From positions 1 through 39,007 of the IMG/VR virus record IMGVR_UViG_3300009537_000065: a stretch of DNA of 39,007 bases; one strand, 5' to 3'. Position numbers and translations under genes: made by a program. The stretch's first letter is position 1; every line of letters starts with the position of its first letter. Below, one piece after another: positions 9,017 to 31,411 of this stretch. This stretch comes from a virus. Below the pieces are notes generated by a model. It was given only the letters and a program-made list of their open reading frames with translations, was not told the origin of the DNA and ran no database searches.

Positions 9017-9532
9017 ATGAACATTACGCAATTCCGAAATAAATTGGGCGCAGGTGGGTCAAGACCAAATCAATTTTTAGTAACGCTGAATTTCCCTTTA
9101 CTGACAGGTTTCCAAGCAGGAGAACAGTCATTACTGGTAACAGCAGCCGCACTACCTGCATCTAACGTCAATCCAACGATTATTCAATACCGCGGCAGAG
9201 AAATCAAGCTCGCAGGCGAAAGAATCTTTGATCCGTGGACAATTACAATGGTCAACGACACTTCAATGAATCTTCGTAAGGGGTTTGAGCGTTGGTCAAA
9301 CCTGATGAATGAGCGCACAAATAACGGTGGAGCCACTCAGCCGCTAGCATATTTGGCAGATTTGCACGTTGCACAGCTAGACCGCAATGATGTAAAGCTC
9401 CGCGAATACCAGATTTTCAATGCATTCCCAATGAATATTTCTGAAGTTGCTCTGGCCTATAGTCAGAACGATGTTATTTCAGAATTCACCGTAACACTAC
9501 AGTATTCGCATTTTGAAGTAACACCTAGTTAA
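9017..9532 (+). CDS. 19: Tail tube protein gp19
   Basis: 171 aa (T4 gp19 is 163), with AGGAG 6 nt before the ATG. Hallmarks are FRNKLGAGGSRPNQFLVTL near the N-terminus, the ALPASNVNPTIIQYRGREIKLAGERIFDPW region (residues about 50-78) and the WTITMVNDTSMNLRKGFERW strand-helix. It makes the hexameric inner tube through which DNA passes. The sheath-tube order matches T4. No anomalies. Confidence 0.95.
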   Translation: MNITQFRNKLGAGGSRPNQFLVTLNFPLLTGFQAGEQSLLVTAAALPASNVNPTIIQYRGREIKLAGERIFDPWTITMVNDTSMNLRKGFERWSNLMNERTNNGGATQPLAYLADLHVAQLDRNDVKLREYQIFNAFPMNISEVALAYSQNDVISEFTVTLQYSHFEVTPS

Positions 9533-18202: not shown

Positions 18203-18814
18203 ATGTCAGAATATTATGATGAGGAAGAAGAAGCCGAGGAAGAAACAGTTCGTGAGTCTTGGGTCAATCGGCAACAGCCAAGCGAGCTAGATTATCTTCG
18301 GCCCAATGGCTTTAGGTTGTCTATTCGTAGTTTACCTAAGGTAACCTATTTCTGCCAAAGTGCCAACATACCGTATATTTCACTGGGTGCTGTCTCCCAG
18401 AGTACACCTCTGACAGATTATTATTTGCCTGGTGAAAAAATCAACTATAGTGATTTGGTTGTCCGCTTTATGATTCAAGAAGATATGTCCAATTATATCG
18501 AATTGTATGATTGGATGATGGGGCTTGGCTTCCCGGTAGACCACGCACAGCATAGAAAGTTGGGTCGCATCCGCCACAACCATAATGTGGGTGATGCAAC
18601 TAGGACTGACGCCTGGCAATATAGCGATGCTTCATTGTTGGTTCTGGGGTCTAGCTACAACCCGATAATGAAAGTCAATTTCTATGATTGCTTCCCTGTG
18701 TCTTTGGAAGGTCTAGACTTTGATGTATCTTCTGGGAATCACCAACATTTCTTCGGGTCTGTCGTTTTTAAGTATCGCCATTTTGATTTTGAGAGATTGG
18801 CCAAAGAGACTTGA
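18203..18814 (+). CDS. Tail-tube-fold virion protein in the gene 3 position
   Basis: 203 aa. The first 20 residues are an acidic tail (YYDEEEEAEEE). The body has FRLSIRSLPKVTYFCQSANIP, a TPLTDYYLPGEKINYSDLVVRF segment (split around residue 75), EDMSNYIELYDWMMGLGFP and a C-terminal strand region (DVSSGNHQHFFGSVVFKYRHF). This strand order (strand, loop, pGxxLxYxxLxVxFxxxEdxxNYxEixxWmxgLG) resembles gp19/gp54-type tube proteins. In marine T4-like phages, as I recall, the gene between 23 and uvsY is usually annotated gp3 (tail completion). I see tube-fold likeness rather than clear similarity to T4 gp3, so I leave the symbol empty. GAGG lies 9 nt before the start. Confidence 0.7.
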   Translation: MSEYYDEEEEAEEETVRESWVNRQQPSELDYLRPNGFRLSIRSLPKVTYFCQSANIPYISLGAVSQSTPLTDYYLPGEKINYSDLVVRFMIQEDMSNYIELYDWMMGLGFPVDHAQHRKLGRIRHNHNVGDATRTDAWQYSDASLLVLGSSYNPIMKVNFYDCFPVSLEGLDFDVSSGNHQHFFGSVVFKYRHFDFERLAKET

Positions 18815-18872: not shown

Positions 18873-19313
18873 ATGAAACTGTCAGAAATACAGGATATGT
18901 GGGGCCAGGATGCAAAAGTGGATATGACCAATTTAGGTCAGTCTGCGGCTAGAGTTCCCGAATTGCATTCCAAATATTTAAAACTTCTCACCAACACTAA
19001 GCTACAGGTCAGAAAGATTGAGAGCGAGTTCCTACGTTTAAAGAGAGCCAAAACTAGTTATTATCGCGGAGAGCTTTCGCAGGAAGAACTGCAAGAGCTT
19101 GGTTGGGACCAGTATTTGCGTAATCGCCCCCTGAAGAATGAAATGGAGGATGTTTTGAATAGTGACGAAGATATTATTGCCAGTTTAGATAAATTGGAAT
19201 ATCTCAAGACAGTTCATTATCAGCTAGAACAAATATTAAAGTCTATTAACAGTCGAACGTGGGACATTAAGACCGCGGTGCAGTGGCACACATTCACGCA
19301 GGGTAATTACTAA
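18873..19313 (+). CDS. uvsY: UvsY recombination mediator
   Basis: 146 aa (T4 UvsY is 137). UvsY loads the RecA-like UvsX onto gp32-coated single-stranded DNA in recombination-dependent replication. Hallmarks: LSEIQDMWGQDAKVD at the N-terminus, PELHSKYLKL (about 29-38), then a long charged helix and YLKTVHYQLEQILKSINSR (about 109-127) before TWDIKTAVQWHTF, which mirrors the T4 ending. The start is fixed by similarity and by a ribosome site within the upstream inverted repeat. The stop TAA shares a base with the next ATG, so the downstream glycosyltransferase is coupled to it. Confidence 0.92.
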   Translation: MKLSEIQDMWGQDAKVDMTNLGQSAARVPELHSKYLKLLTNTKLQVRKIESEFLRLKRAKTSYYRGELSQEELQELGWDQYLRNRPLKNEMEDVLNSDEDIIASLDKLEYLKTVHYQLEQILKSINSRTWDIKTAVQWHTFTQGNY

Positions 19314-20701
19314 TGAAATCGCATCTGTATCTTAGACGAATTGCCTTTATGATAGGCGACCAACATTTAGTGCCTCACGGCGGAGTCGGGCAGTTTGCCA
19401 AAGGCATTATTGAAATTGCCCAAACGTTAAACTGGAAAGTTGATATCATAAGTGATAAACCCCCAACCAAGAAGACGGGAGAATTTCACGAAGTATTAAA
19501 ATCACTTGGGGCTTCTTTTGTTTATCCGAAGACCCCGATTTCATATAAAGACCACGCAAATGTATTTGCATTTTCAGATTCGATGAATTTTGAAAAGATG
19601 GTCAATTTTCGCAATTCAATAATGGGTGCATTTGAGAAGAACATATATGATGCCATTATTTGTAACACGCTTGAAACATTTCCAGTTGCATATGGTTTGA
19701 ATCTTCATCCATATATCCCTGTTATATTCTATACTCACAATGAGAGTATGATTTTTCGTGAATCTCGAACCTTGAAGAATGTATTTTCTGAGAGCTTTAA
19801 CCAGTTCTTCAATCAAGTTGTTGGATGTGCAGGCGTGGTTGTCGGAACGCAGTCAGAACGTAATGCTCAGGAATTGGTCAAGAATGTTCACGGGAGGTGT
19901 GTTCATTTGCAGATGCCGATTCCAGAAACAGCATTACTGGCACCAAATTTTAATGAGCGTGAGGGAGTTTTGTTTATTGGCCGTTGGGAGAAGGGGAAGA
20001 ACCCCGAAGAATATTTGCGAGTAATAAAAGAAACGGGGCTCCCTGCAAAAATACTTACTAACTCAAATGGTGCTAGAAAGTTTCGAGATTGGTTCAAAGA
20101 ACACAATATAACAAATTATACGATTGGTGAGTCGTTAATTGGTCAAGAAAAGGTAGAATTTATAACAAGCGCAAGACTGCACTTGAATACGAGTTTGCGC
20201 GAGTCTTATGGGTTTGCAATGTTTGAGTGCATAGGCCATATGCCCTGCGTAGTATTAGAAGGTGCAGATTGGCGCAACAATTTCAATTCGTTGTTCTATA
20301 GGACAGCAACCAAATCTTCACTTGTTTCTGTTGTGGATGACTTATATCATAGGTATGCTTCACCCAATTTGTGGTATGCTAGCGGTTCACTAGAATATGT
20401 GCGCTCATTGCATTCAAGTGCGGGGCCAGCTTGGAATGGGCTTATTTCAAATTACAAGAGCAAAGAATCCTTAAATACTTCTGCAAAGATAAATACCTAT
20501 GATTCAGTGACATACTCTGAATATATTGCAGGATTGGGCCGAAGTCAAATATCAATTGAGGATGTGCAGTCGGTGTTGTCCAATCGGTCCAAATTCAATG
20601 TTAGATATAGTGATGGTGACACATATTTGTATCGCGGTGATGCTCCTATGCTATTAGATACTACTGCAGGCTCAACAAGTTTAGAGGAGTTATTCGCATA
20701 A
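19313..20701 (+). CDS. GT-B glycosyltransferase between uvsY and uvsW
   Basis: 462 aa. N-terminal Rossmann domain begins RRIAFMIGDQHLVPHGGVGQF (residues 8-28), a glycine-rich opening as in GT4-type enzymes and, in layout, T4 alpha-glucosyltransferase. The C-terminal nucleotide-sugar domain has VLFIGRWEKGKNPEEYLRVI (about 219-238; Arg and Lys for diphosphate binding) and LNTSLRESYGFAMFECIGHMP (about 291-311; the E-x7-E-like region). About 80 C-terminal residues beyond the fold end in SLEELFA. Substrate unknown. Candidates are a modified base in phage DNA or a host surface glycan; coupling to uvsY and uvsW by one-base overlaps favours a DNA-metabolism role. Family confident, function inferred. 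Confidence 0.8.
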   Translation: MKSHLYLRRIAFMIGDQHLVPHGGVGQFAKGIIEIAQTLNWKVDIISDKPPTKKTGEFHEVLKSLGASFVYPKTPISYKDHANVFAFSDSMNFEKMVNFRNSIMGAFEKNIYDAIICNTLETFPVAYGLNLHPYIPVIFYTHNESMIFRESRTLKNVFSESFNQFFNQVVGCAGVVVGTQSERNAQELVKNVHGRCVHLQMPIPETALLAPNFNEREGVLFIGRWEKGKNPEEYLRVIKETGLPAKILTNSNGARKFRDWFKEHNITNYTIGESLIGQEKVEFITSARLHLNTSLRESYGFAMFECIGHMPCVVLEGADWRNNFNSLFYRTATKSSLVSVVDDLYHRYASPNLWYASGSLEYVRSLHSSAGPAWNGLISNYKSKESLNTSAKINTYDSVTYSEYIAGLGRSQISIEDVQSVLSNRSKFNVRYSDGDTYLYRGDAPMLLDTTAGSTSLEELFA

Positions 20702-22194
20702 TGACTTTTGATATCACGCTAGAGAAAACGGATGAAGTGTTTATGAGCGTCTATTCCGAGGCGGATATTGCTATGGAGTTGTCGGAGTTTTTTACCTTTG
20801 AAGTGCCGGGTGCAAGATTCACCCCGCAGTATCGGGCAAAAATGTGGGATGGGAAGTTGCGTCTATTTAATGCATTTACCAAACAATTGTATTTGGGTCT
20901 CATTCCATATATTGAAGAATTTTGCAAAGGTCGAAATTACAGTTTGGACAACAAGTGCCCCTCTGTTGGGGAGAAGGTAACGGATTTTGATTTGGGTAGC
21001 TTCATTGCAGACCTGAAGATTCATTCACGTGGCACACCAATTGAAGTGCGTGATTACCAACAGGACGCAGTTAGACACGCCTTAGCTGAAGGTCGGACGC
21101 TGTTGCTCTCCCCCACTGCGTCTGGAAAGAGCCTAATCATTTATTTGTTGGTTCGCTGGTATCAAAATAAAGGTTATCGGCAATTGATTGTTGTTCCGAC
21201 AACATCGTTGGTTGACCAACTCAGTAGTGATTTTGGTGACTATGCTTCTGAGTTGGAGTGGACACCGCAGGATAACATTGCTAAAATTTACGGCGGCCAA
21301 GAAAAGCATACTGAGTACCCAATTGTGATTTCTACCTGGCAGAGTATCTTTAGAATGCCGAAATCATTCTTCAATGAGTTTGATGTTATCTATGGAGACG
21401 AGTGCCACCTTTTTAAGGCGAAGTCTCTAGTTGGAATTCTCACTAAATCTAATTCTGCTAAACACCGGATCGGTACTACAGGAACTCTAGACGGAACCAA
21501 AACACACCGATTAGTGTTAGAGGGATTGTTTGGTTCAGTTCACAAAGTAACTACGACAAAGAAGTTGATGGATGCTAAACAATTGGCGACTTTGAACATC
21601 AAAACAATACTTCTAACGTATCCTGATGTTGAAAGGAAACTTGTCAAGAAGATGACCTATGCAGAGGAGCTTGATTTCATAGTTACTCATCCAAAGAGAA
21701 ACAAGTTCATCCGAAACTTATCATTAGATTTAAAGGGCAATACTCTGATTCTTTTTCAGTTTGTTGAGAAGCACGGAAAGACGCTTTATGAAATGCTCAA
21801 AGAAAAGAACCTAGATGGGCGCAAAATCTTCTTTGTTCACGGGGGTGTAGGAAGCACAGACCGAGAGGCAGTGCGAGCCATAGTAGAAGGAGAAACGAAC
21901 GCGATTATTGTGGCGAGTGTTGGGGTGTTTTCTACTGGCGTGAACATTCGGAATCTTCACAACATTGTCTTTGCGTCCCCCTCTAAAGCCAGAATACGCA
22001 CACTGCAATCCATTGGACGCGGTCTTAGAACAGATACAGGAAAGACTATTTGTAACCTTTATGATATCGGTGATGACTTTGCTTGGAAAAGCACAACCAA
22101 CTATACTCTAACACATATGAAAGAGAGAATCAAAATATACAATCAAGAGGGTTTCAATTATAAAATCATAACGATTCCTCTTTATGGAAACTAG
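20701..22194 (+). CDS. uvsW: UvsW-like DNA/RNA helicase
   Basis: 497 aa (T4 UvsW is 587). Superfamily 2 helicase that remodels branched DNA and R-loops and shifts T4 from origin- to recombination-dependent replication. Motif Q/I: VRDYQQDAVRHALAEG, then LLLSPTASGKSLI (Walker A about 138-145). Motif II is DECH (about 233-236) in VIYGDECHLF. Motif III TGTLDG, motif V ASVGVFSTGVNIRNLHN, motif VI QSIGRGLRT. The N-terminal small domain (PGARFTPQYRAKMWDGKLRLF) is a UvsW hallmark. ATG overlaps the glycosyltransferase stop. Confidence 0.93.
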   Translation: MTFDITLEKTDEVFMSVYSEADIAMELSEFFTFEVPGARFTPQYRAKMWDGKLRLFNAFTKQLYLGLIPYIEEFCKGRNYSLDNKCPSVGEKVTDFDLGSFIADLKIHSRGTPIEVRDYQQDAVRHALAEGRTLLLSPTASGKSLIIYLLVRWYQNKGYRQLIVVPTTSLVDQLSSDFGDYASELEWTPQDNIAKIYGGQEKHTEYPIVISTWQSIFRMPKSFFNEFDVIYGDECHLFKAKSLVGILTKSNSAKHRIGTTGTLDGTKTHRLVLEGLFGSVHKVTTTKKLMDAKQLATLNIKTILLTYPDVERKLVKKMTYAEELDFIVTHPKRNKFIRNLSLDLKGNTLILFQFVEKHGKTLYEMLKEKNLDGRKIFFVHGGVGSTDREAVRAIVEGETNAIIVASVGVFSTGVNIRNLHNIVFASPSKARIRTLQSIGRGLRTDTGKTICNLYDIGDDFAWKSTTNYTLTHMKERIKIYNQEGFNYKIITIPLYGN

Positions 22195-22621
22195 ACATTA
22201 CAAGGTAGTAAAGCTAAAGACAGGGGAAACCCTAATATGTTGGCTGCCTCGGGAGCTTCGACCGGGGTCGTCAGACGCATTTCTGACACTCAACGACCCA
22301 GTTCAGGTTGTGTCGATGAAGGAAATGCGACGATTGGATGGTGTAGTATCGGCGGAGACTTTTATGTTGCGGCCGTGGGTTGGGTTGAGTGATTCATCTG
22401 AATTTTCAATTTCTATGGATATCATCTTGACGATTGGAAATGCCAAGAGGGGCGTTCAGAAGCAGTATGAAACGTTTCTGACCTATAGTGCGGAGGCGGA
22501 AGACTATTACCGCGAACAAGAAGAAAGTCGTTTGCGGTCAGACGCAGCCGAAATGCTTATTCGGGAATTGAGTCCCAACAAATTTTACAGGATTGTTGAC
22601 GATCCATACGGGGAGGGTTGA
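22184..22621 (+). CDS. Small Sm/Lsm-like phage protein (145 aa)
   Basis: Overlaps the end of uvsW by 11 nt. The first 75 residues (YKVVKLKTGETLICWLP, then LTLNDPVQVVSM, then TFMLRPWVGLSD) follow the strand pattern of Sm-like small beta barrels found in many T4-like phages next to gene 55. The C-terminal half is a charged helix (YSAEAEDYYREQEESRLRSDAAEM) and a short tail. Function unknown; RNA binding is possible from the fold but nothing tests it here. Coupled on both sides: its TGA overlaps the gp55 ATG. Confidence 0.7.
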   Translation: METRHYKVVKLKTGETLICWLPRELRPGSSDAFLTLNDPVQVVSMKEMRRLDGVVSAETFMLRPWVGLSDSSEFSISMDIILTIGNAKRGVQKQYETFLTYSAEAEDYYREQEESRLRSDAAEMLIRELSPNKFYRIVDDPYGEG

Positions 22622-23229
22622 TGAAATCTGAAAATCATTATATTGACAATAAGGTGTTTTTGGCGGCATTAATTGAGTATCGTGTTGGACTGGAACAGGC
22701 CAAGATTTGCGGGGAAGAGTTGCCGCGAGTGCCAGAATACATAGGTGAGTGTTTCATAAAGATTGCAGACCACTTAGCGCATAAGTCCAATTTTGTGAAT
22801 TACAGTTTTAGAGAAGATATGATTTTAGATGCAATTGAAAATTGTTTGATTTACGCACACAATTTTGATCCAGCTAAGTCTAGCAATCCCTTTGCGTATT
22901 TTACACAAATTGCCTATTATGCATTTATTCGTAGAATACAAAAAGAAAAGCGGCATATGAGTACCAAAAATCGGTATGTGCAGTCTTTAGATATTGATAC
23001 ATTAATAAGACAGGCGAGTGATGATGGTGATTATGGCAGTTGGTTTGTTAGCTATCTTCAAGCGCAAGTGGATGATGCTGAAAGGGAAAATGACCCCAAA
23101 CCACCTCAGAAGATGAAGCGAATGCCGAAATATTTACAAAAGGCTAAACTGAGCATCCTGGATGACTTCGCCGTCCAGATTGATGAAACCGAACACATTG
23201 ATTTGCCAATAGTAATGGCAGACGATTGA
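22621..23229 (+). CDS. 55: Late-transcription sigma factor gp55
   Basis: 202 aa from ATG 22621; the upstream TTG 22618 is less likely (T4 gp55 is 185). gp55 binds host RNA polymerase and recognises TATAAATA. Hallmarks: VPEYIGECFIKIADHLAHKSNF (about 38-59), YSFREDMILDAIENCLIYAHNF and the near-invariant SSNPFAYFTQIAYYAFIRRIQKEK region (about 86-110), corresponding to sigma region 2. The C-terminal end (SILDDFAVQIDE) is in the position of the sliding-clamp-binding tail. Its presence agrees with the perfect late elements in the structural module. Confidence 0.95.
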   Translation: MKSENHYIDNKVFLAALIEYRVGLEQAKICGEELPRVPEYIGECFIKIADHLAHKSNFVNYSFREDMILDAIENCLIYAHNFDPAKSSNPFAYFTQIAYYAFIRRIQKEKRHMSTKNRYVQSLDIDTLIRQASDDGDYGSWFVSYLQAQVDDAERENDPKPPQKMKRMPKYLQKAKLSILDDFAVQIDETEHIDLPIVMADD

Positions 23230-23277
23230 CCCTCTGCTAGAAAATACGGGACGCGGCGAAAAAATGCAAATTAGAAC

Positions 23278-23306
23278 TTGACACCGTGCAGTAGTTGTGT
23301 TAGTTT
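23278..23306 (+). promoter_or_regulatory. Host-type promoter before queE
   Basis: TTGACA (23278-23283), 17-nt spacer, TAGTTT (23301-23306), in the 119-nt gap after gene 55. The -10 is poor against TATAAT but matches the TAG(A/T)TT form of the other early promoters here. It would start the modification operon, which has no other obvious promoter. Confidence 0.55.
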
Positions 23307-23348
23307 ACATCATAAGCTATGTGATAACAAAAATTATGGGGGTGGGGT

Positions 23349-24254
23349 ATGACAATCCGATATTCGGAAATTTTTTTTTCGTTTCAGGGGGAGGCTGAAC
23401 TCGCAGGTGTTCCTGCAGTTTGGTTGAGATTTTTTGGCTGTAACTTAAATTGTAATGGTTTTGGTCAAGCAAATCCGACAGACCCATCTACTTACATTCT
23501 GCCATACAAAGATGCAGATTTAAGTAATGTGCAGACACTTAAGGATTTGCCTGTTTGGAAATATGGTTGTGATTCGTCTTATTCTTGGTCTGCTAAGTAT
23601 AAGCATCTCGCGCAAACGTGTACGGTTGATGTTGTTGTTGACCGCTTAGTTGATGCTAACCGGTCTGAACACAACCCAGAAGGGAAGTTTATTCACCCAA
23701 AAACACACCAACCAATAATGCTATGTTTCACTGGTGGCGAACCGATGCTTCAGCAGCCAAACATTATTGCGATTTTGCAGGAGTTGCGGCGTCGGGGGAA
23801 TCTGCCGACTATTGTTACCGTAGAGACAAATGCAACCGTGCCACTTTCTGAGGCTCTTCGGGAGTTTATCAATACTGAATTCTTTGCGCGTGTTTCTGGT
23901 GGTGAGCGTTGGCACTGGGCTATGAGTCCCAAGTTGTTTAATGTTTCAGGTGAAGCTAATGCGATAAAGCCGGATATAATATATTCGTATGCTGTGACTA
24001 CGAGAAACACCTCGGTGTTGAAGTTTGTTTGTCGAGGTGGCAAGGCAGACTGGGATGAGCTTGATGGATCTATTGAAAAGATATTACAGAAGTTTGATAT
24101 TTTGAAGATTCCCCCAATCTGGATTATGCCCGTGGGTGCAACGCAAGAAGCACAATCAGATATCGCAGATTTGTGTATGGAGGCAATGCATCGCGGATAC
24201 AACGTAGCAACACGAAATCAATGTGCAGTTTTTGGAAATAAAATCGGATTCTAG
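23349..24254 (+). CDS. queE: QueE-like 7-carboxy-7-deazaguanine synthase (radical SAM)
   Basis: 301 aa. QueE converts 6-carboxy-tetrahydropterin to 7-carboxy-7-deazaguanine. It begins RYSEIFFSFQGEAELAGVPAVW (residues 4-25), the QueE signature. Cluster cysteines appear to be C31, C35 and C74 (GCNLNC ... YGCDSSYSW), that is C-x3-C-x38-C, with a 38-residue insertion in place of the short loop of bacterial enzymes. GGEP (about 128-131) binds SAM. VETNAT and WHWAMSPKLF continue the family pattern, and the C-terminus NQCAVFGNKIGF is typical. First gene of the deazaguanine operon; 9 nt before folE. Confidence 0.9.
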   Translation: MTIRYSEIFFSFQGEAELAGVPAVWLRFFGCNLNCNGFGQANPTDPSTYILPYKDADLSNVQTLKDLPVWKYGCDSSYSWSAKYKHLAQTCTVDVVVDRLVDANRSEHNPEGKFIHPKTHQPIMLCFTGGEPMLQQPNIIAILQELRRRGNLPTIVTVETNATVPLSEALREFINTEFFARVSGGERWHWAMSPKLFNVSGEANAIKPDIIYSYAVTTRNTSVLKFVCRGGKADWDELDGSIEKILQKFDILKIPPIWIMPVGATQEAQSDIADLCMEAMHRGYNVATRNQCAVFGNKIGF

Positions 24255-24263
24255 GAGAACATA

Positions 24264-24944
24264 ATGGACAAACTTGGGAAATATTCAAAGACGGACGTTG
24301 AGTTGGGAATGCGCGTTCACGCCTATCTCAAGGAAGTTGGTGTAGAGACTCCGACTGTTGCGGGCAGCCATCAGTCTATGGACGCTCGTATTAAGAAGAT
24401 TGAGAAGCATTTTCGAGCAATTATGGAAACTCTTTGCTTGGATATGGCAGACGACTCTCTTGCCGATAGCCCTCGTCGGGTGGCCAAGATGTATGTTCGT
24501 GAAATGTTTTGGGGGCTCGACCCGTCTGCCTTCCCAAAATGCACAACAATCGAAAACAAGATGGGATATGATGAAATGGTTCTTGAAAAGGACATCACGG
24601 TAATGTCTTGTTGCGAGCATCATTTTGTTACCATTGATGGTGTCGCGCACGTTGCATATATTCCTTCTACTAAGGTTATTGGGCTGTCGAAGCTCAATCG
24701 TGTGGTTGAATATTTCTCACGCAGACCTCAAGTTCAGGAGAGACTGACTGAGCAGGTCTATCACGCGCTGTCGTTGATTCTAGAGTCCCCGAATGTTGCG
24801 GTTGTCATTGATGCTTCGCATTTCTGTGTTAAGGCTCGCGGAGTGCAAGATCCGCAGTCAACAACGACTACCTCTAAGTTGGGTGGTGTATTCAAGACAG
24901 ACGCCGCGCTTCGTGCTGAGTTTATGCACCTTATCAAGAAGTAG
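24264..24944 (+). CDS. folE: GTP cyclohydrolase I
   Basis: 226 aa, close to E. coli FolE (222). It opens GTP to 7,8-dihydroneopterin triphosphate, the first step to 7-deazaguanines. Zinc ligands C117 and H120 in MSCCEHHFVTIDG, and C188 in SHFCVKARGV. HVAYIPSTKVIGLSKLNRVVE (residues 129-149) and QSTTTTSKLGG are the active-site signature segments. The N-terminal 45 residues are a helical extension. Ribosome site AGGAG at 24254-24258. Folate supply is an alternative use, but the neighbours queE, dpdA and queD point to DNA modification. Confidence 0.95.
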   Translation: MDKLGKYSKTDVELGMRVHAYLKEVGVETPTVAGSHQSMDARIKKIEKHFRAIMETLCLDMADDSLADSPRRVAKMYVREMFWGLDPSAFPKCTTIENKMGYDEMVLEKDITVMSCCEHHFVTIDGVAHVAYIPSTKVIGLSKLNRVVEYFSRRPQVQERLTEQVYHALSLILESPNVAVVIDASHFCVKARGVQDPQSTTTTSKLGGVFKTDAALRAEFMHLIKK

Positions 24945-24952
24945 GAGAAAAT

Positions 24953-25465
24953 ATGAGTTCAGACTGGTGTATGCTCGACCTCGAAACAATGAGTACGGAA
25001 TCTAATGCCGCAATATGTTCCATTGGGGCGGTTAAGTTTAATCTGGCCGAGGGAATAACGGATAGTTTTTACATTACAGTTGATGTTGCAGACTGCAAGA
25101 GATGCGGCTTAGATGTTTCGCTGAGTACAGTAAAGTGGTGGAGCAAGCAGCCCAAATCTACCCTTGATGCATTGCGTGAAAATTGTGTTCCTCTCAAAGA
25201 TGCTCTAACTGCATTTTCTAAGTGGTACGGGTCGGTACCGATGGAGACTTGGGGCTGCGGTGCAAACTTTGATAACGTCATTATTGAGAATGCATACAAA
25301 GCTGTCGGTATGGTTCGTCCTTGGAATGCATGGAAGGATCGGTGTTATCGGACAGTTCGTGAATTGATTAAGATGCCTGAAAACGAGCGGTTGGGTACAT
25401 ATCACAATGCATTAGATGATGCCAAGCATCAAGCGGCGCACTTGCTAAAAATTCTGGGGAGCTAA
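24953..25465 (+). CDS. dexA: DexA/Rv2179c-like DEDDh 3'-5' exonuclease
   Basis: 170 aa. DEDDh residues: D9 and E11 in MLDLETMST, D107 in ANFDNVIIENAY, then H151 and D155/D156 in YHNALDDAKHQA. The short length and the CSIGAVKF strand match the Rv2179c-like exonuclease family that includes T4 exonuclease A (DexA, 227 aa), but this protein is shorter, so the symbol is tentative. It would degrade single-stranded nucleic acid from 3' ends. It is placed between folE and dpdA with gaps of 8 and 4 nt, so it is co-expressed with the modification genes. It could process host DNA or RNA to salvage nucleotides. Confidence 0.82.
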   Translation: MSSDWCMLDLETMSTESNAAICSIGAVKFNLAEGITDSFYITVDVADCKRCGLDVSLSTVKWWSKQPKSTLDALRENCVPLKDALTAFSKWYGSVPMETWGCGANFDNVIIENAYKAVGMVRPWNAWKDRCYRTVRELIKMPENERLGTYHNALDDAKHQAAHLLKILGS

Positions 25466-25469
25466 CAAT

Positions 25470-26717
25470 ATGATGCTTGAATATGTTGCGTCTGGTCTGT
25501 CTTTTTTGCGGTTACGATTCCCAGAAACACGGGTTGGTGCATTGCGTGATGAATTGAACTCTCTTTGGCGCCGTGTTCGCGGGCAGCACGGGCACGAATT
25601 ATCATTCCTCTTTAATGCTCACGTTGAGAAGATTTTTGCCGAGCCATTCAAGGAATGTTTTCGGGGTGAGGGGATCCACCAAGTCTATGCCGATTCGGGT
25701 GGTCTTCAAATGGTTACGTTGGGGATGAAAATTACACCTCAGTTAAAGGATGACGTTTACGAGTTTCAGGGGAAGTATTCAGATTGTGCTATGTCATTTG
25801 ATGAAATTCCTGTTTCTATTATTGGTGCTCGTGCTGTGCGCGGTGACACTTCGAATAAGTATTTTGATAAGGACAAGTTTGAATTCTGTGCGAAAGAGAC
25901 CGGTCGCAATGTAAGGCGTCAGATTGAAACTTTCGATAAGTTGAAGTCAGATGCGCGACCACTATTTATTGCGCAGGGGCACAATTGCGACACCTATATT
26001 AAGTGGACGGAGCTTGCATTTTCTGAAATACCCAAGGAGATGCATTCTCGCATCGGCGGAGTTGCTATGGGGTCTGCCGCATTGGGTAACGGAATGTTTG
26101 AGGACTGTAAGAGAGCATTCTATTACACTCAGTTGCCAATTGAAAGCACTCACTTGCACTTGCTCGGTGTGGGGGCTATCAGCAGATTGTTGCCGACCAC
26201 AGTATTTTTAGATAATGGATTGTATAAGGATTTGCATATCAGCTATGATAGTACCACACACACTTCAGGTGTACAGATGGGCCGGTACTATCATAGCAAT
26301 AGGGAGTGGGTAACACCCACTCGTAAGATGAATCCTGCATATACAAAGATTCGTGAAGATATTCAGAAGAATGTTCCTGGATATACTTGGACTGACGAGG
26401 ATTTCTATCAACTTATGCAAGTGACAGTAAGAACGCACGAACTGAAAACAGGTGACCCGGCTCCGCCAATTATCATCTTTAATGCTTATTTCGTATCTAC
26501 AATTTTGAATTTTATTCGTCATTGGGAAGCAATCAGAAACGATTTTACATTGGCACAAGATATAACCTCGCCTCTAGAATATGCGGCATTCAATTCGTTG
26601 AGAGCAGTAAAGACCAGAGAAGATTTTGATTTCTGGTGCAGTGAAGTTGGAAAGTTTTTACCCTCTATGCCAATTCGTGATGAAGCACCGGGTACACTTG
26701 ATGGTCTATTTGACTAG
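25470..26717 (+). CDS. dpdA: DpdA-like DNA 7-deazaguanine transglycosylase
   Basis: 415 aa; starts ATGATG, both possible. TGT-like barrel that swaps guanine for a 7-deazaguanine base. Seen: YADSGGLQM (D75, matching the DSGGFQ of tRNA transglycosylases), FDEIP (D111), GGVAMGSA (about 195-202) and the putative nucleophile Asp260 in HISYDSTTHTSG. The C-x-C-x2-C zinc site of tRNA-acting TGT is absent, as expected for DNA-acting phage DpdA enzymes. Residues about 300-415 are an extra helical region that may bind DNA. Gene neighbours supply its base substrate. The sequence does not say which 7-deazaguanine is used. Confidence 0.9.
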   Translation: MMLEYVASGLSFLRLRFPETRVGALRDELNSLWRRVRGQHGHELSFLFNAHVEKIFAEPFKECFRGEGIHQVYADSGGLQMVTLGMKITPQLKDDVYEFQGKYSDCAMSFDEIPVSIIGARAVRGDTSNKYFDKDKFEFCAKETGRNVRRQIETFDKLKSDARPLFIAQGHNCDTYIKWTELAFSEIPKEMHSRIGGVAMGSAALGNGMFEDCKRAFYYTQLPIESTHLHLLGVGAISRLLPTTVFLDNGLYKDLHISYDSTTHTSGVQMGRYYHSNREWVTPTRKMNPAYTKIREDIQKNVPGYTWTDEDFYQLMQVTVRTHELKTGDPAPPIIIFNAYFVSTILNFIRHWEAIRNDFTLAQDITSPLEYAAFNSLRAVKTREDFDFWCSEVGKFLPSMPIRDEAPGTLDGLFD

Positions 26718-26725
26718 GAGATATT

Positions 26726-27097
26726 ATGAATATAAAAAGGTGGATTGAAGTTGGATTTCAAAAGGAAGGCATTCATCGTTATCCCGCAGCCCTAGACGAC
26801 CCCAAGTTGGCAGATGTTTCGTTTCTGGGTCACCCTCATAGGCATATGTTTCACTTCACCGTTCGCGTGGAAGTGTTTCACAATGACCGCGATATCGAAT
26901 TCATTTTGTTTAAGCGCGAGCTAGAATCGCTATATACTAAGGGTCTTATGTATGTTGATTACAAGTCGTGTGAAATGCTTGCCCAAGAACTGATTGGTTA
27001 TATCACAACAGTTTACCCTGCGCGAGATATGCAGGTTCGTGTATTTGAAGATGCTGAGAATGGTGCTCAACTAGACTATACTTGGAGTAACTGCTAA
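26726..27097 (+). CDS. queD: QueD-like 6-carboxy-tetrahydropterin synthase, phage type
   Basis: 123 aa, as usual for QueD (about 120). It makes 6-carboxy-tetrahydropterin from dihydroneopterin triphosphate. Zinc ligands H17 (EGIHRYP), H38 and H40 (GHPHRHMF) are present. DRDIEF (54-59), SCEMLAQEL (81-89) and Glu in VFEDAENGAQLDY follow the family. The nucleophile Cys normally four residues before the first His of HxH is Leu34, so the canonical Cys is missing. The stop overlaps the next ATG by one base, coupling the glycosyltransferase directly to this biosynthetic gene. Confidence 0.85.
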   Translation: MNIKRWIEVGFQKEGIHRYPAALDDPKLADVSFLGHPHRHMFHFTVRVEVFHNDRDIEFILFKRELESLYTKGLMYVDYKSCEMLAQELIGYITTVYPARDMQVRVFEDAENGAQLDYTWSNC

Positions 27098-28257
27098 TGC
27101 GAAAATTATTCTATGTGGGACTGGAGCCCTACAACGAGCGTTATACCCTTCAGTTAACAGAGTGGATGACCCGCGCGTTGGACAGGCGGGGTGTAGATTA
27201 CACAATTGTTCCCGGGACAACGTTGAATAACAACGGAAAGATTGCTGTGGGACAAGTTCTTGATGCCCACGGCCGAAGCTATTTTGCTCTTAGTCAGACG
27301 ATGCATTTAGTTAACGCAATGCACAATGGCGACTGCACGGGAGATGATGCAATCTTTTTTGAGGATATGTTTCATCCGGGGATCGAGTCGTTACCATACA
27401 TAATGAACCAGGTTTCAGAAGATATGCGGCCTGAAGTTTATGTTCGGTGCCTAGCACAGAGCATTGACCCGGACGACTTCATCCACGTTCACGGGATGGA
27501 GAAGTGGATGGGCAAGTATGAAAAGATGGTGTGCGAGTTTGCAACTGTTCTTGCATCTAGCGAAGAAATGGTTGCTAATATGAAGATTGCAGGATGGGAT
27601 GCTCCTATCTATAATATCTCAGGTCTGACGTTTGATGCAGATGAGGTTAGGGAGCGGGTTCCTGAGATTATTCCGTTCGACAAACGAAGGCGGCGCGTAG
27701 CCTTTACTGCAAGATTTGACCAAGAAAAGCAACCAGACTTCTTTATGGATATTGTCGAGAAAATGGCGGAGACCGGGGTTGAGTTTGCAATTTTCTCGGG
27801 TGCTGAATTGAGGAGCAACAATCCTAGATTTGTAGAACGAGCCAGAGCATTGAACGATTCTGGAGCACTTAGTATCTACGAAAATCTGTCCAAGAATCAG
27901 TATTACAACCTCTTATCAGATACCCGAGTTGTCTTTAACTGTGCTTTGCAAGATTGGTTCAGCAACACAATTTCTGAGGCTGATGCTCTAGGAACAAACG
28001 TAGTGTATCCTGCGTATCGGTCTTTCCCAGAAGCACTTGCCAATGATGCTGACCGACTTTATATTCCTTGGTCACAGGATGATGCCATTAAGAAGATACA
28101 CTTAAATCTCAAGCGGGAGAGTCCCAATATGGGGGCTGTTTCAAAATGGACTTCACATACCGCGGACAGAATCATTGACATTATGCAGTTCAGGGGTGAG
28201 AAGTGGGCTCGTTACGGAAATCGCTACCGTGATTTAGTCGCACCCGCAAAATACTAG
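27097..28257 (+). CDS. GT-B glycosyltransferase coupled to queD
   Basis: 386 aa. N-terminal half (LFYVGLEPYNERYTLQLTEW at 4-23, TIVPGTTL) is an acceptor domain of unfamiliar type. The C-terminal half is GT4-like: RVAFTARFDQEKQPDFFMDI (200-219, Arg206 and Lys211), FAIFSGAE (230-237), NLSKNQYYNLLSDTRVVFNC, then DWFSNTISEADALGTNVVYP with Glu294 in the usual donor-binding place. The layout (R-E-K-P, then E-A-x-A-x-G, then FPEAL) recalls queuosine-tRNA mannosyltransferase, but GT4 enzymes share much of this. One-base overlap with queD and 1 nt gap to gene 47 tie it to DNA metabolism. I infer that it may glycosylate the 7-deazaguanine in phage DNA; a surface-glycan target is the alternative. Confidence 0.78.
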   Translation: MRKLFYVGLEPYNERYTLQLTEWMTRALDRRGVDYTIVPGTTLNNNGKIAVGQVLDAHGRSYFALSQTMHLVNAMHNGDCTGDDAIFFEDMFHPGIESLPYIMNQVSEDMRPEVYVRCLAQSIDPDDFIHVHGMEKWMGKYEKMVCEFATVLASSEEMVANMKIAGWDAPIYNISGLTFDADEVRERVPEIIPFDKRRRRVAFTARFDQEKQPDFFMDIVEKMAETGVEFAIFSGAELRSNNPRFVERARALNDSGALSIYENLSKNQYYNLLSDTRVVFNCALQDWFSNTISEADALGTNVVYPAYRSFPEALANDADRLYIPWSQDDAIKKIHLNLKRESPNMGAVSKWTSHTADRIIDIMQFRGEKWARYGNRYRDLVAPAKY

Positions 28258-28258
28258 G

Positions 28259-29308
28259 ATGAAGTTAGCAATCATAACAGATACCCATTTTGGGGGCCGT
28301 TCGGATTCAGCACAGTTTGACCAATATTTTAAACGATTTTATGATGAAGTGTTTTTTCCGTATTTGGATAAGACGCAGATAAAAACCGTTATACATCTTG
28401 GGGATGTGTTTGACCGACGCAAGTATATCAATTTCCAGATTCTGAAGTCTTGCCGAGAATACTTCTTTGACAAGCTCGCCTCTAGAGAAATTGATATGCT
28501 TGTTATCCCCGGGAATCACGATACATATTACAAGAACACAAATGAAGTGAATTCCTTGAATCTGTTGCTTGGTGGGTATTCCAATATTGAGTTGTTAGAA
28601 GAACCAACTGAGCGCACTTTCGGGTCATTGAAAACTTTATTTGTTCCCTGGATTTGTGCTGAGAATTATACAGAATGTCTAATTGCCTTAGCTACAAGTA
28701 ATGCTAGTGTTTGTATGGGACATCTAGAGATTGAAGGCTTTGAAATGCATCGTGGTATGGGAAACGAGGGTGGGATGAATGCTGAGGCTTTCAACCGATT
28801 CCCTATGGTTCTATCCGGGCACTTTCATCATAGAAGTTCAAGTGATGTCATTCATTATCTGGGCAGTCCGTATGAAATGACTTGGAGTGACTACGATGAC
28901 CCGCGCGGTTTTCATATTCTAGACACAGAAACAATGGAGTTAGAATTCATTGAGAACCCATTTACGATACATCGCAAGATTCTTTACAATGATTCAGAAA
29001 AGATGAACGTCAATCCGGCAGACTATGTGGGTGCATATGTTAAGATTGTTGTTGTGAGCAAAAAGAAGTATTCAGAATTTGACAAATTGATTGATTCGTT
29101 GTATATTAATAATGTAGCAGAGCTTAAAATTTTAGAAGATTTTTCAGAATTTGAACTTAACGCACTTGATGATAGTCCCGTTAATCTGGAAGACACGATG
29201 ACTCTTTTGTCTGAATACATTGATTCGTTTGAAACTGATTTAGATAAGAGTAGATTAAAGACTGTTATGAAGGCCCTTTATGTCGAAGCTCAAAACAGTG
29301 ACCAATGA
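28259..29308 (+). CDS. 47: Recombination nuclease subunit gp47 (SbcD/Mre11-like)
   Basis: 349 aa (T4 gp47 is 339). Calcineurin-type phosphoesterase with the usual metal motifs: D8 and H10 in ITDTHFGG, D49 in LGDVFDRR, N86-H87 in PGNHDTYY, a further His in MGHLEIEG and a GHFHHR motif near 188. With gp46 it resects DNA ends for phage recombination and helps degrade host DNA. The C-terminal 100 residues are the cap domain. ATG follows the glycosyltransferase stop by 1 nt; the TGA stop overlaps the gp46 start. Confidence 0.95.
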   Translation: MKLAIITDTHFGGRSDSAQFDQYFKRFYDEVFFPYLDKTQIKTVIHLGDVFDRRKYINFQILKSCREYFFDKLASREIDMLVIPGNHDTYYKNTNEVNSLNLLLGGYSNIELLEEPTERTFGSLKTLFVPWICAENYTECLIALATSNASVCMGHLEIEGFEMHRGMGNEGGMNAEAFNRFPMVLSGHFHHRSSSDVIHYLGSPYEMTWSDYDDPRGFHILDTETMELEFIENPFTIHRKILYNDSEKMNVNPADYVGAYVKIVVVSKKKYSEFDKLIDSLYINNVAELKILEDFSEFELNALDDSPVNLEDTMTLLSEYIDSFETDLDKSRLKTVMKALYVEAQNSDQ

Positions 29309-31020
29309 TAGTTTTCAAGACAATAAAATACAAGAATTTTCTTTCTTCGGGGAATGCATTCACTAAGCTGGTCTTAGATAAAAATCCTACTACTCTCGTT
29401 GTTGGTGAGAATGGTAGCGGCAAATCTACGATGCTTGATGCTATATGCTTTTCCTTATTCGGAAGACCATTTCGAAATATTAACAAACCCCAATTACTCA
29501 ACAGCATCAATAAGAAAAATTGTGTTGTTGAGATTGAGTTTGTTATTGGTGGGAAGGAGTATCGTATTGTTCGTGGAATAAAGCCCACCTTGTTTGAAAT
29601 CTATGTCAATGGCAAATTGCTCAACCAAGATGCGGCTGCGCGTGATTATCAGAAGTATCTGGAAGATGTTATCTTAAAGCTCAATTATAAGTCATTCACA
29701 CAGATTGTAATTTTGGGGTCAGCGTCATTCACTCCCTTTATGCAATTGCCTTTAGGTTTTCGGCGCAATATCATTGAGGACATTCTGGATATTCAGATAT
29801 TCACCTCAATGAACAATCTGTTGAAGCAGAAGCAAGTTGAAGCGAAAGAAAAGATGACAAACATAGAAACTACATTGACATTGGCACTGCACAAAGCCAA
29901 GATTCAGCAGGAGTATATCAAGTCTTTGCAGAATGACCGACAGACTAGAATTCACGAACTGACGGAGAAAATAACCGATACGCGAAATGCAATATCTCAG
30001 CAGGAGGACGAAAATTCTGGGTGGGAACAGAGCCGAGAAAATCTTCAGAATTCAGTTCTAGATTATGATGAGGTTCGTGCCGCACGCCGAGAGCTAGTAA
30101 AGAAGTATGAGAAGGTTGTTGCTGAATTGGATCAGCTAGAAGAAGATGTTGCCTTTTATCACAATACGAATGAATGTCCCACTTGCAAGCAGGGGTTGCA
30201 TTCGGAGTTTAAGGAGAAGGTTATTGCTGAAAAGGGACTTCGAACTTCTACTGTTCGGGGTCTTATACAGGAATTCAAGAATAAGAATGATGAGCTAGAA
30301 TCTCGCCTTGAGGAGATTCAAAAAATTCAGAAAAAGATTTCAGAATTGGGAGACAGGATTGTTCGTGGGCAGAGTGATATTATTTCAAACGAAAGATATA
30401 TTCAAGTTCTAGAGGTTGAAATTCACGAACTTTCAGGTAAAGTTGGAAATATTGAAGCCGAAAAGACTAAGCTGAAGGCACTTGCCAAAGAGGGGCTTCA
30501 AGCTGAAACTGAGAAGGCTGAGTTGGGGGAGGAGAAGTATTATTATGATATCGCCGCTTCTTTATTAAAAGATACTGGGATAAAAACAAAAATCATTCGT
30601 CAGTATCTTCCTGCAATCAATAAGTTAGTCAATCGTTTTTTGCAAGCGATGGATTTCTTTGTTCACTTTGAATTAGACGAACAGTTTAACGAAGTCATTC
30701 GGTCTAGGCATCGTGATGAATTCAGTTATGCTAGTTTTAGTGAAGGAGAGAAACAGAGAATCGACCTTGCTTTGGTGTTTACTTGGCGAACGATTGCCAA
30801 GATGAAAAATAGTGCCAGTACTAATCTGTTGCTTTTGGACGAAGTGTTTGATGGAAGTTTGGACACTACAGGTACAGAATATGTTATGACTCTACTAAAT
30901 ACTCTAGGGGAGCAGACCAACGTGTGGGTTATCTCACATAAGGGAGACCAGCTGTTCGACAAGTTTAGCAATGTTATTCGATTTGTGAAGAAGCGAAATT
31001 TTTCAACAATACAAACTTGA
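29305..31020 (+). CDS. 46: Recombination nuclease subunit gp46 (SbcC/Rad50-like)
   Basis: 571 aa (T4 gp46 is 560). ABC-type SMC-like ATPase: Walker A GENGSGKST (about 34-42), two coiled-coil arms (about 180-420), zinc hook CPTC (about 291-294), signature FSEGEKQRIDLAL (about 478-490) and Walker B LLLLDEVFDGSLD (about 508-520), then an SHKGD H-loop. Full length and intact. ATGA overlap with gene 47 gives coupled synthesis of the two subunits. Confidence 0.95.
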   Translation: MIVFKTIKYKNFLSSGNAFTKLVLDKNPTTLVVGENGSGKSTMLDAICFSLFGRPFRNINKPQLLNSINKKNCVVEIEFVIGGKEYRIVRGIKPTLFEIYVNGKLLNQDAAARDYQKYLEDVILKLNYKSFTQIVILGSASFTPFMQLPLGFRRNIIEDILDIQIFTSMNNLLKQKQVEAKEKMTNIETTLTLALHKAKIQQEYIKSLQNDRQTRIHELTEKITDTRNAISQQEDENSGWEQSRENLQNSVLDYDEVRAARRELVKKYEKVVAELDQLEEDVAFYHNTNECPTCKQGLHSEFKEKVIAEKGLRTSTVRGLIQEFKNKNDELESRLEEIQKIQKKISELGDRIVRGQSDIISNERYIQVLEVEIHELSGKVGNIEAEKTKLKALAKEGLQAETEKAELGEEKYYYDIAASLLKDTGIKTKIIRQYLPAINKLVNRFLQAMDFFVHFELDEQFNEVIRSRHRDEFSYASFSEGEKQRIDLALVFTWRTIAKMKNSASTNLLLLDEVFDGSLDTTGTEYVMTLLNTLGEQTNVWVISHKGDQLFDKFSNVIRFVKKRNFSTIQT

Positions 31021-31033
31021 GGAGGCACCTACT

Positions 31034-31411
31034 ATGGACTGGGATTTTGGGTTTACTGTTATAGCTGCACCAGAATCACCCATAACTGACCGTCCTGTAG
31101 GAGAACCTGCAGGCACTCCCGGTGAAATATTGGAGTTGCGTGACGCACTTTTGATTAAGTTGGCAGATATCGAACGCAAACTTGAAGTGCTTGAAGTTGG
31201 AGGCGATAGCTTTCGTTTGATGGAAGAACACCGGTTGTTAATCGCAGAGCAGGCGAAGGAAAAGTTGCACAATTTGGAGGTATTGATTCTACCTCTTCTT
31301 TATAATTTGCAGAAAAATTCGGAGAAAGAATATATCCATTGGCCGAATAGGGAGAAGATTATTCAAGCACAGATTGAGAAAATACTTTTAATAACGAGGT
31401 CCTATGATTGA
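31034..31411 (+). CDS. Conserved small phage protein after gene 46 (125 aa)
   Basis: Strong ribosome site GAGGAGG 8 nt upstream. The N-terminus is flexible (GFTVIAAPESPITDRPVGEP). Residues 30-90 are helical and coiled-coil-like (EILELRDALLIKLADIERKLE). The C-terminal part has EVLILPLLYNLQKNSEKEYI then HWPNREKII, a pattern I recall in unnamed genes beside 46 in other T4-like phages. Function unknown. It overlaps the ClpP-like gene by 8 nt. Confidence 0.75.
   Translation: MDWDFGFTVIAAPESPITDRPVGEPAGTPGEILELRDALLIKLADIERKLEVLEVGGDSFRLMEEHRLLIAEQAKEKLHNLEVLILPLLYNLQKNSEKEYIHWPNREKIIQAQIEKILLITRSYD

Follow-up and report, generated by a model that had tools for sequence, protein, structure and literature searches.

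Queuosine in tRNA can be mannosylated or galactosylated, and phages alter the bases of their DNA in two ways which bear on the locus described here. In the first, described by Hutinet et al. (2019, PMC6884629), FolE, QueD, QueE and DpdA take part; the path ends at 7-carboxy-7-deazaguanine (CDG) when FolE, QueD and QueE are present without QueC and, in the available part of that article, none of the bases described bears a sugar and none of the viruses analysed has QueA, QueG or QueH. In the second, the alpha-glucosyltransferase of T4 (T4 AGT), whose gene lies between genes 55 and 47, glucosylates 5-hydroxymethylcytosine; according to the accessible text of PMC13216743, this enzyme co-purifies with gp45. 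We analysed a DNA stretch of 39,007 bases (IMG/VR virus record IMGVR_UViG_3300009537_000065; "the window" means this whole stretch), part of the genome of a T4-like phage with cyanophage relatives, in which a cassette at 23349-28257 carries dpdA, a gene which we call queDl and a gene for a glycosyltransferase (GT). Judged from its genes and from those of its relatives, it appears to belong to a QueC-free branch of 7-deazaguanine DNA modification which is conserved and bears a GT, a further GT gene lying outside the cassette, and this description holds up in the comparisons below.

The GT carriers share FolE, QueD, QueE and DpdA with the systems of Hutinet et al. (PMC6884629) and differ from them, as far as that text goes, by having no QueC or QueF (in 19 records), an extra QueD-fold protein and one or two GTs. 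T4 AGT and the GT of the window are alike in their GT-B fold and in the position of their genes, the clamp association being that of T4 AGT; the bases differ, since the T4 enzyme acts on a cytosine derivative whereas the predicted substrate here is a guanine analogue inserted by DpdA. A phage GT and candidate phage-encoded nucleotide-sugar genes are also found with the arabinosyl-hydroxymethylcytosine of RB69, where the base is a cytosine and, in the available part of PMC6024577, 7-deazaguanine genes are not described. A glycosylated 7-deazaguanine in DNA was not found in what was covered of the open-licence literature, a scope outside which the work of Cui et al. 2023 falls. The window is an incomplete genome, the remainder of which lies outside our view. 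Cui et al. reportedly described dCDG and dDG in phages, with DpdL, DpdM and DpdN, DpdL being, it is said, a CDG decarboxylase; none of these further 7-deazaguanines is said to be glycosylated. As QueC-free products, dCDG and dDG would fit the QueC-free pathway of the GT carriers.

Linkage of the glycosyltransferase to DpdA and exclusion of QueC

The GT cassette turns up often in environmental virus sequences and seldom in the genomes of named phages. At least 598 stretches of IMG/VR match the GT, and tblastn against named phage genomes gave three records, BUCT-ZZ01 and ACP17 (twice), both with the GT beside dpdA and queDl. A profile search of eight queDl-carrying loci added the GTs of PA5oct, Xanthomonas phage X1 and Sinorhizobium phage Phosso, with queDl near each; the phages with GT relatives include those of Acidovorax, Pseudomonas, Sinorhizobium and Xanthomonas. 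From each IMG/VR scan we kept the best 80 loci, of at least 598 (GT), 369, at least 597 and 383 (broader DpdA scan). The first set consists of 84 loci (the best 80 of IMG/VR, the window, BUCT-ZZ01, ACP17 and a self copy). Where a GT-seeded locus extends more than 5 kb upstream, which is so for 72 (69 from IMG/VR, plus the window, BUCT-ZZ01 and ACP17), DpdA always lies within about 5 kb; in the four first-set loci without DpdA, the sequence upstream of the GT is 2.1 kb or shorter. Three of three contigs of metagenome-assembled genomes (MAGs) with a full-length GT carry DpdA, queDl, phage polymerase and clamp genes. When all distinct loci are pooled, DpdA is in view near the GT in 197 of 198, the last one being Phosso, whose DpdA is elsewhere in the genome; this pool includes loci seeded with DpdA or queDl, only the first set being free of DpdA seeding. 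Duplicates, GTs below 250 residues (including that of MAG contig L099, discussed below), DpdAs below 300 residues and loci too short on either side were dropped before the counts. The first-pass annotation of the window, which had suggested a survey of the GT beside dpdA in other phages, held that homologues found mainly in phages without dpdA would speak against its proposal; the homologues we found stand beside dpdA.

The DpdA of the window has relatives in 70 phage records and shows 28-35% identity, within the aligned region, with proteins of KVP40, Ps15, pf16 and F86. We treat it as a putative DpdA2-like protein, DpdA2 being the name which PMC6884629 gives to the protein of nt-1. The homologous dpdA adjoins queC, queE and folE in Ps15, folE and queC in KVP40, and queC and folE in F86. 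The stretches DSGGLQ, FDEIP, QG, HxLGxG and SYDS are invariant in six members (DSGGLQ, FDxIP, QG, HxLG and SxDS in another alignment), and we take them to be the TGT-type active-site stretches; the Pfam TGT model matches neither this DpdA nor eight records including BUCT-ZZ01, PA5oct and Phosso. A second type of DpdA has about 500 residues (L005:5545-7068 and relatives); neither Pfam nor PHROG matches the member scanned, and the profile of the window type does not reach this type at E up to 10. The two types can be aligned only by comparing their profiles (probability 80, E 1.4e-5), with DSGGxQ, QG, HxLG and S(Y/F)D in common. Sequence searches of the PDB with DpdA gave nothing useful, and a viral scan with the PA5oct DpdA found nothing, which shows only that its peptides are absent. 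Near queDl in Cellulophaga phage phiST, one can notice a 259-residue protein (L088:6807-7586), TGT-like by eye (HFLGAG, STDS) and detected by neither DpdA profile, which may be a third type.

The GTs fall into two groups: 24 aligned ones are 62-67% identical to that of the window, and those of ACP17, X1, PA5oct and Phosso 21-25%. The window-type DpdA occurs with distant GTs in ACP17 and X1 and the 500-residue type with distant GTs in PA5oct and Phosso, while the near GTs come from loci of both DpdA types. Since near and distant GTs each occur with each type of DpdA, in several gene orders, the linkage is more than shared ancestry. We consider the functional link of the GT with DpdA, and its direction, to be well supported by these gene comparisons, though not proven.

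KVP40, F86, Ps15 and pf16 have a window-type DpdA together with QueC, and neither GT nor queDl. Among 41 distinct IMG/VR loci seeded with the window-type DpdA and having at least 2.5 kb downstream, 40 have the GT and one has QueC. The broader scan gave 85 distinct window-type loci long enough on both sides (two hand-picked controls, L092 and L095, included): 77 have the GT without QueC, 8 have QueC without the GT, none has both and none has neither, the QueC profile for these counts being built from the four control QueCs and covering only the DNA in view. In no locus examined do GT and QueC occur together. We also examined 19 records with the GT, namely 14 IMG/VR contigs between 80 and 353 kb long and 5 phage genomes. 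All 19 have QueE, with a search profile that includes five of them, and 18 have a true QueD; QueC passes the cut-off in none (there are two sub-threshold matches, and the control was positive in 11 of 14 genomes) and QueF is found in none. As QueE and true QueD occur there without QueC, the pathway of the GT carriers should stop at CDG, before preQ0.

The QueD-fold paralogue, the two glycosyltransferases and the clamp-type tails

The first-pass annotation took the gene just upstream of the GT (26726-27097) for queD. Its product, of 123 residues, does have the fold: the AlphaFold2 model (pLDDT 91.6) has as its best PDB match by Foldseek E. coli QueD (4ntk, E 9e-6, TM 0.69), followed by other PTPS proteins, and VIA gives Z 11.1 with 4ntk (rmsd 2.9 over 109 residues), a score which other PTPS rows and those of dihydroneopterin aldolase equal. 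In 25 members H17, L34, H38, H40, C82, E83 and E108 are invariant, the three histidines being at zinc-site spacing. The cysteine of QueD is catalytic. Leu34, four residues before the second zinc histidine, stands at the spacing of this cysteine in 25 of 25 members (the position is judged from spacing), whereas true phage QueDs keep C33-x3-H37 in nine of nine. No Pfam or NCBIfam PTPS model matches queDl, and a sequence search of the PDB gave no match. The leucine, and the true QueD present in addition in 18 of the 19 GT records, led us to reject this gene as the QueD of the pathway, and a true QueD was not found within the window. From its fold and its neighbours, queDl is possibly a CDG-processing enzyme; we suppose that it may be the DpdL of Cui et al. 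2023.

Two details of these families were noted. In Vibrio phage Bakedbeans (L087:5212-6363) queDl is fused to a long N-terminal region, with 383 residues in all, and true phage QueDs (L001:7884-8351, L002:8801-9277 and others) have C-x3-H-G-Y invariant in nine, where E. coli QueD has HGH. Five phages (RHph_I1_18, Bakedbeans, phiST, D479 and Ahp1) have queDl without the GT, and neither DpdA type was found in them, the GT search having no positive control among the nine records covered. Because of these five phages, queDl does not imply the GT. A GT is out of view in 20 of the 80 loci seeded with queDl: 15 of these are without either DpdA type (several being of full length) and 5 have the 500-residue type, some cut by the contig end.

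For the GT itself, the AlphaFold2 model (pLDDT 80.4, pTM 0.81) has two Rossmann-like GT4 domains. It has 351 PDB matches at E<=0.001, the best including MshA, BshA, PimA and the glycogen and sucrose-phosphate synthases (VIA Z 22-25 for sucrose-phosphate synthase, MshA and BshA). The comparison with T4 glucosyltransferases, which the first-pass annotation had suggested, bears out a GT-B fold (T4 AGT, 1xv5: Z 21.2, rmsd 4.2 over 316 residues). The cyanobacterial tetrahydrobiopterin glucosyltransferase 5zes gives Z 21.9 (rmsd 3.4 over 309 residues), within 1 of T4 AGT and of many other rows. The T4 AGT family PF11440 is absent among the Pfam matches of the GT at E up to 0.1, and neither 5zes nor T4 AGT is among the PDB sequence matches of the GT profile at E up to 0.1. 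R206, K211 and D286-x7-E294, invariant in 25 members, are presumably the donor-site residues, the last pair as (D/E)x7E; Glu replaces the D286 column in the GTs of ACP17, PA5oct, X1 and Phosso. The best named viral match in BFVD is the GT of ACP17.

Many relatives of the cassette have a gene for GalE (UDP-glucose 4-epimerase): the first set has it in 77 of its 84 loci, often directly downstream of the GT and in 47 with a 4-base overlap, and it is in view in 110 of the 193 distinct GT loci that extend 1.5 kb or more downstream. The GalE tested passes the NCBIfam galE cut-off narrowly (263.0 vs 262.3). It is not in view in the window, BUCT-ZZ01, ACP17 and L004.

The second GT of the window (19313-20701) is 39% identical to a protein of BUCT-ZZ01 (L001:9010-10353) whose gene overlaps dpdA. 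Of the 80 loci of the broader scan, 49 contain a member of its family, which touches dpdA from upstream in 46 and lies about 0.95 kb off in 3. The window member has no Pfam match; that of BUCT-ZZ01 and six of seven relatives scanned have weak sub-cut-off matches to GT families. Distant homologues (22-26%) occur in Erwinia jumbo phages and in Xanthomonas X1, in the latter about 40 kb from dpdA. The members end in SLE(D/S)LFA or similar, and 38 of 40 distinct ones fit the pattern [LFIM][DNE]x[LFM]F. This pattern is also terminal in 83 of 112 window-type DpdAs and in 71 of 116 phage polymerases, and is found in none of the sets of FolE, QueE, Gpt, GalE, queDl, true QueD and the first GT, against a background of 1.7% of open reading frames (ORFs). 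Among the 43 ORFs of the window it fits two, DpdA (LDGLF) and the second GT. The DNA polymerase gp43 of T4 ends in EKASLDFLFG and T4 gp55 in PSLDFLYEAND, tails which bind gp45; the tail of T4 AGT itself lacks the motif. The polymerase-like tails thus suggest that DpdA and the second GT may be tethered to the sliding clamp.

The position of the cassette gives another comparison with T4. There the genes follow one another along the coding strand as 55, a-gt, 47, 46, interspersed with small and homing genes (47.1 between a-gt and 47), and in the window the order is a 55-like gene, the cassette with the GT last, 47 and 46. The GT lies between the gp55-like and gp47 genes in all 67 distinct loci with both in view. 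This means that the cassette fills the slot of the T4 DNA alpha-glucosyltransferase.

Proposed pathway and alternatives

From gene content, folds, linkage, QueC exclusion and the tail motif we infer each reaction, the order of the reactions, the clamp binding, the sugar and the acceptor atom in the following scheme. FolE, QueD (presumed to be encoded elsewhere in the incomplete genome) and QueE would make CDG and, for want of QueC, the synthesis would stop before preQ0. Held at the clamp through the LDGLF peptide at its C-terminus, DpdA would exchange guanines in new DNA for CDG or a product of CDG. queDl would prepare the base, most simply by removing or presenting its carboxyl group, and the GT, made together with queDl, would transfer a hexose (glucose or galactose) from a UDP-sugar, for which many relatives would supply their own epimerase. 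The second GT, clamp-tethered as well, would add the first or the second sugar. The acceptor could be the carboxylate, giving a glycosyl ester, or C7, giving a C-glycoside. Should queDl be DpdL, the sugar would have to be attached to C7 as a C-glycoside or to some other ring position; with the carboxylate kept, a glycosyl ester would be possible. Like the glucosyl-hydroxymethylcytosine of T4, the product would shield the phage DNA from nucleases of the host.

We put the probability that the cassette makes a glycosylated 7-deazaguanine in phage DNA at about 0.62. The earlier suggestion that the phage may glycosylate such a base in its DNA thus gains support, from the DpdA linkage, the exclusion between GT and QueC, GalE and the clamp-tailed second GT. 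A broader version is tentative, and we would rather bet slightly against it: a widespread viral DNA armour in which QueC-free CDG would be reshaped by a QueD-derived enzyme and, with a clamp-tethered DpdA and two GTs, would come to bear a mono- or disaccharide, possibly as a C7 C-glycoside, the GT-queDl module moving between DpdA types and filling the slot of T4 AGT. If the proposed pathway is real, base replacement by DpdA and DNA glycosylation, each known separately, would be united in one pathway. It predicts roles for the QueD-like family phrog_17812 and for two GT families, as well as a DpdA acting at the replication fork via the sliding clamp, and it is directly testable, as GT carriers exist in culture.

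A number of points weigh against this pathway. On the chemical side, a decarboxylase queDl would leave C7 without an obvious oxygen or nitrogen handle. A host QueC could still act (Synechococcus elongatus, in our control list, has one), and phage D479 has queDl, no GT and a QueC-family match over the cut-off, because of which queDl alone is no proof of a QueC-free path. Genes for GalE, Gpt and true QueD were not found in the window. As for the tails, the pattern was defined after some of them had been seen; among the 121 DpdAs of the 500-residue type only 12 have it at the very end (75 of them have a clamp-type stretch somewhere in their last 60 residues, mostly not terminal), and it is absent from the DpdA of KVP40. 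A looser pattern adds a tail-sheath stabilizer (PHROG 227, 4382-5173, ending in FDDIFGG). The first GT never has the motif (0 of 214) and is acidic, with a net charge of -11 (-3 to -17 in the family); net charge was dropped as a test of DNA binding, T4 AGT being acidic too (-5). The fold search was likewise rejected as a test of the acceptor, for it does not separate DNA GTs from small-molecule GTs. As for the linkage, polB and clamp genes are nearby in 67-68 of the 84 first-set loci and, because most of these loci share this neighbourhood, the raw counts overstate independence. Of 120 distinct loci with the 500-residue type, two (L200, L213) have queDl and no GT in view, and MAG contig L099 has a C-terminal GT fragment and no DpdA in 6 kb; up to the fragment it resembles, by eye, GC-rich bacterial DNA, and it may be a chimeric contig.

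The same product could be obtained in another order, the GT glycosylating the free base or nucleotide and DpdA then inserting the glycosylated base, as eukaryotic TGT inserts the bulky queuine. We regard this order as unlikely. The acidity of the GT, its lack of a clamp-type tail and its translation together with a small QueD-fold protein, the solved relatives of which act on small molecules, agree with it; the second GT of the same clusters, however, ends in a clamp-type peptide, and T4 AGT, a known DNA glycosyltransferase, is likewise acidic and tailless. Another explanation is that the GT is a passenger, acting on a host surface glycan, a virion protein or a 5-hydroxymethylpyrimidine, and lies beside dpdA by shared ancestry. 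The common polB-clamp neighbourhood would fit, and a GT4 fold alone is silent on the acceptor, but the linkage persists with either of the two DpdA types, with near as well as distant GTs and in several gene orders, and loci with QueC in view lack the GT. Moreover, a gene of the thymidylate synthase/hydroxymethylase family, which hydroxymethyl bases need, is over the cut-off in only 3 of the 19 carriers. We think it quite improbable that the GT is such a passenger.

Still harder to sustain is the explanation that the GT glucosylates a pterin, made by FolE and the PTPS-like protein, in the manner of the cyanobacterial tetrahydrobiopterin glucosyltransferase. A set of FolE, a PTPS-fold protein and a GT4 enzyme resembles that pathway, and the structural match 5zes is the enzyme of Synechococcus PCC 7942, which BUCT-ZZ01 infects. 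But QueE and DpdA, neither of which biopterin needs, are respectively present in 19 of 19 GT records and linked throughout; the cysteine is missing from the PTPS-like protein, phages of the four other genera named above have GT relatives, and T4 AGT scores equally high. It is scarcely credible that the gene set modifies host tRNA, yielding a glycosyl-queuosine-like base, since, although DpdA and TGT are homologous, the viruses of Hutinet et al. have no QueA, QueG or QueH as stated above, QueC and QueF are absent from the 19 carriers and DpdA has a polymerase-type tail. We retain the glycosylation of a 7-deazaguanine in DNA as the preferred reading.

Layout of the cassette and companion genes

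Besides the features of Table 1, the window carries head, tail, portal and terminase genes, UvsY, UvsW and gp46. Its DNA is weakly similar to that of Synechococcus phages, and its GT is 63% identical to that of Synechococcus phage BUCT-ZZ01. Six genes on the same strand lie between the sigma gene and gp47.

Table 1. Location of the cassette genes, their borders and the second glycosyltransferase (positions in the window, except for L265)
Feature	Location	Strand	Remarks
Second glycosyltransferase-like gene (GTsec)	19313-20701	+	C-terminus STSLEELFA; about 4.8 kb upstream of dpdA
gp55-like late sigma factor	22618-23229	+	phrog_234, E 1e-56; left cassette border
queE (7-carboxy-7-deazaguanine synthase-like radical SAM)	23349-24254	+	phrog_2076, E 5.7e-47; long insertion between second and third cysteine
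folE (GTP cyclohydrolase I)	24264-24944	+	Pfam E 1.2e-62; NCBIfam FolE equivalog 308 bits, cut-off 202
DEDDh / Rv2179c-like exonuclease	24953-25465	+	Pfam PF16473, E 2.2e-43
dpdA (DNA-guanine transglycosylase-like)	25470-26717	+	phrog_10773, E 8e-84; C-terminus GTLDGLFD
queDl (QueD-fold paralogue without the QueD cysteine)	26726-27097	+	phrog_17812, a PHROG of unknown function
GT (GT-B, GT4-type glycosyltransferase)	27097-28257	+	Pfam Glycos_transf_1, E 7e-6, slightly below cut-off
gp47 (SbcD-like)	28259-29308	+	phrog_100, E 7e-114; right cassette border
Second GT in L265	6637-7992		L265 cluster member; family with polymerase-like C-terminal tail

PHROG, NCBIfam and the relatives confirm the queE, folE, dpdA and GT-B genes of the first-pass annotation. 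It took queE, folE, dpdA and "queD" to be adjacent and overlooked the exonuclease gene between folE and dpdA. The GT does start inside the preceding stop codon, its ATG sharing the A of the queDl TAA; this one-base overlap had been thought to make a chance neighbour less likely, and we rejected it as main evidence. Among 200 queDl-GT pairs, counted with automatically picked start codons and duplicates retained, 33 overlap by 4 bases, only 2 by 1 base, and 136 are at least 10 bases apart, so that the spacing varies and the overlap is weak evidence. The cassette is more than a chance association, as judged from its relatives. The idea that the genes stand behind one promoter found no backing: a simple promoter scan gave no promoter-like site in the 119-base gap before queE, and 24 sites in 22000-31100 against 20.3 (standard deviation 4.3) in shuffled sequences.

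The NCBIfam QueE models match queE below cut-off; C31, C35 and C74 are invariant in nine QueEs, and the long insertion between C35 and C74 is also present in BUCT-ZZ01 (L001:6233-7093). A homologue of the exonuclease, the sole PADLOC match, occurs in 146 of 179 window-type DpdA loci (duplicates retained) and lies directly upstream of dpdA in 102 of these 146 placements. A phosphoribosyltransferase gene (gpt) recurs in the clusters (L001:7093-7554, L005:16840-17466, L085:7184-7618), is in view in 101 of 286 GT loci (duplicates retained) and is also annotated in the QueC-type phage Ps15; its product may recycle the guanine released by DpdA. The full cluster of L265 has the order queE-gpt-folE-second GT-dpdA-queDl-GT-galE-queD. 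Mostly between dpdA and queDl, 74 of the 84 first-set loci have a protein of about 130-170 residues (L005:7283-7789, L002:10326-10724); Pfam, PHROG and PADLOC gave no match for the L005 member, nor did PHROG for that of ACP17. Elsewhere in the window there are two tail-tube-like proteins, both PHROG 45, one by the sheath gene and one by UvsY (9017-9532 and 18203-18814), and a homing/HNH endonuclease gene (16767-18089) downstream of the major head protein.

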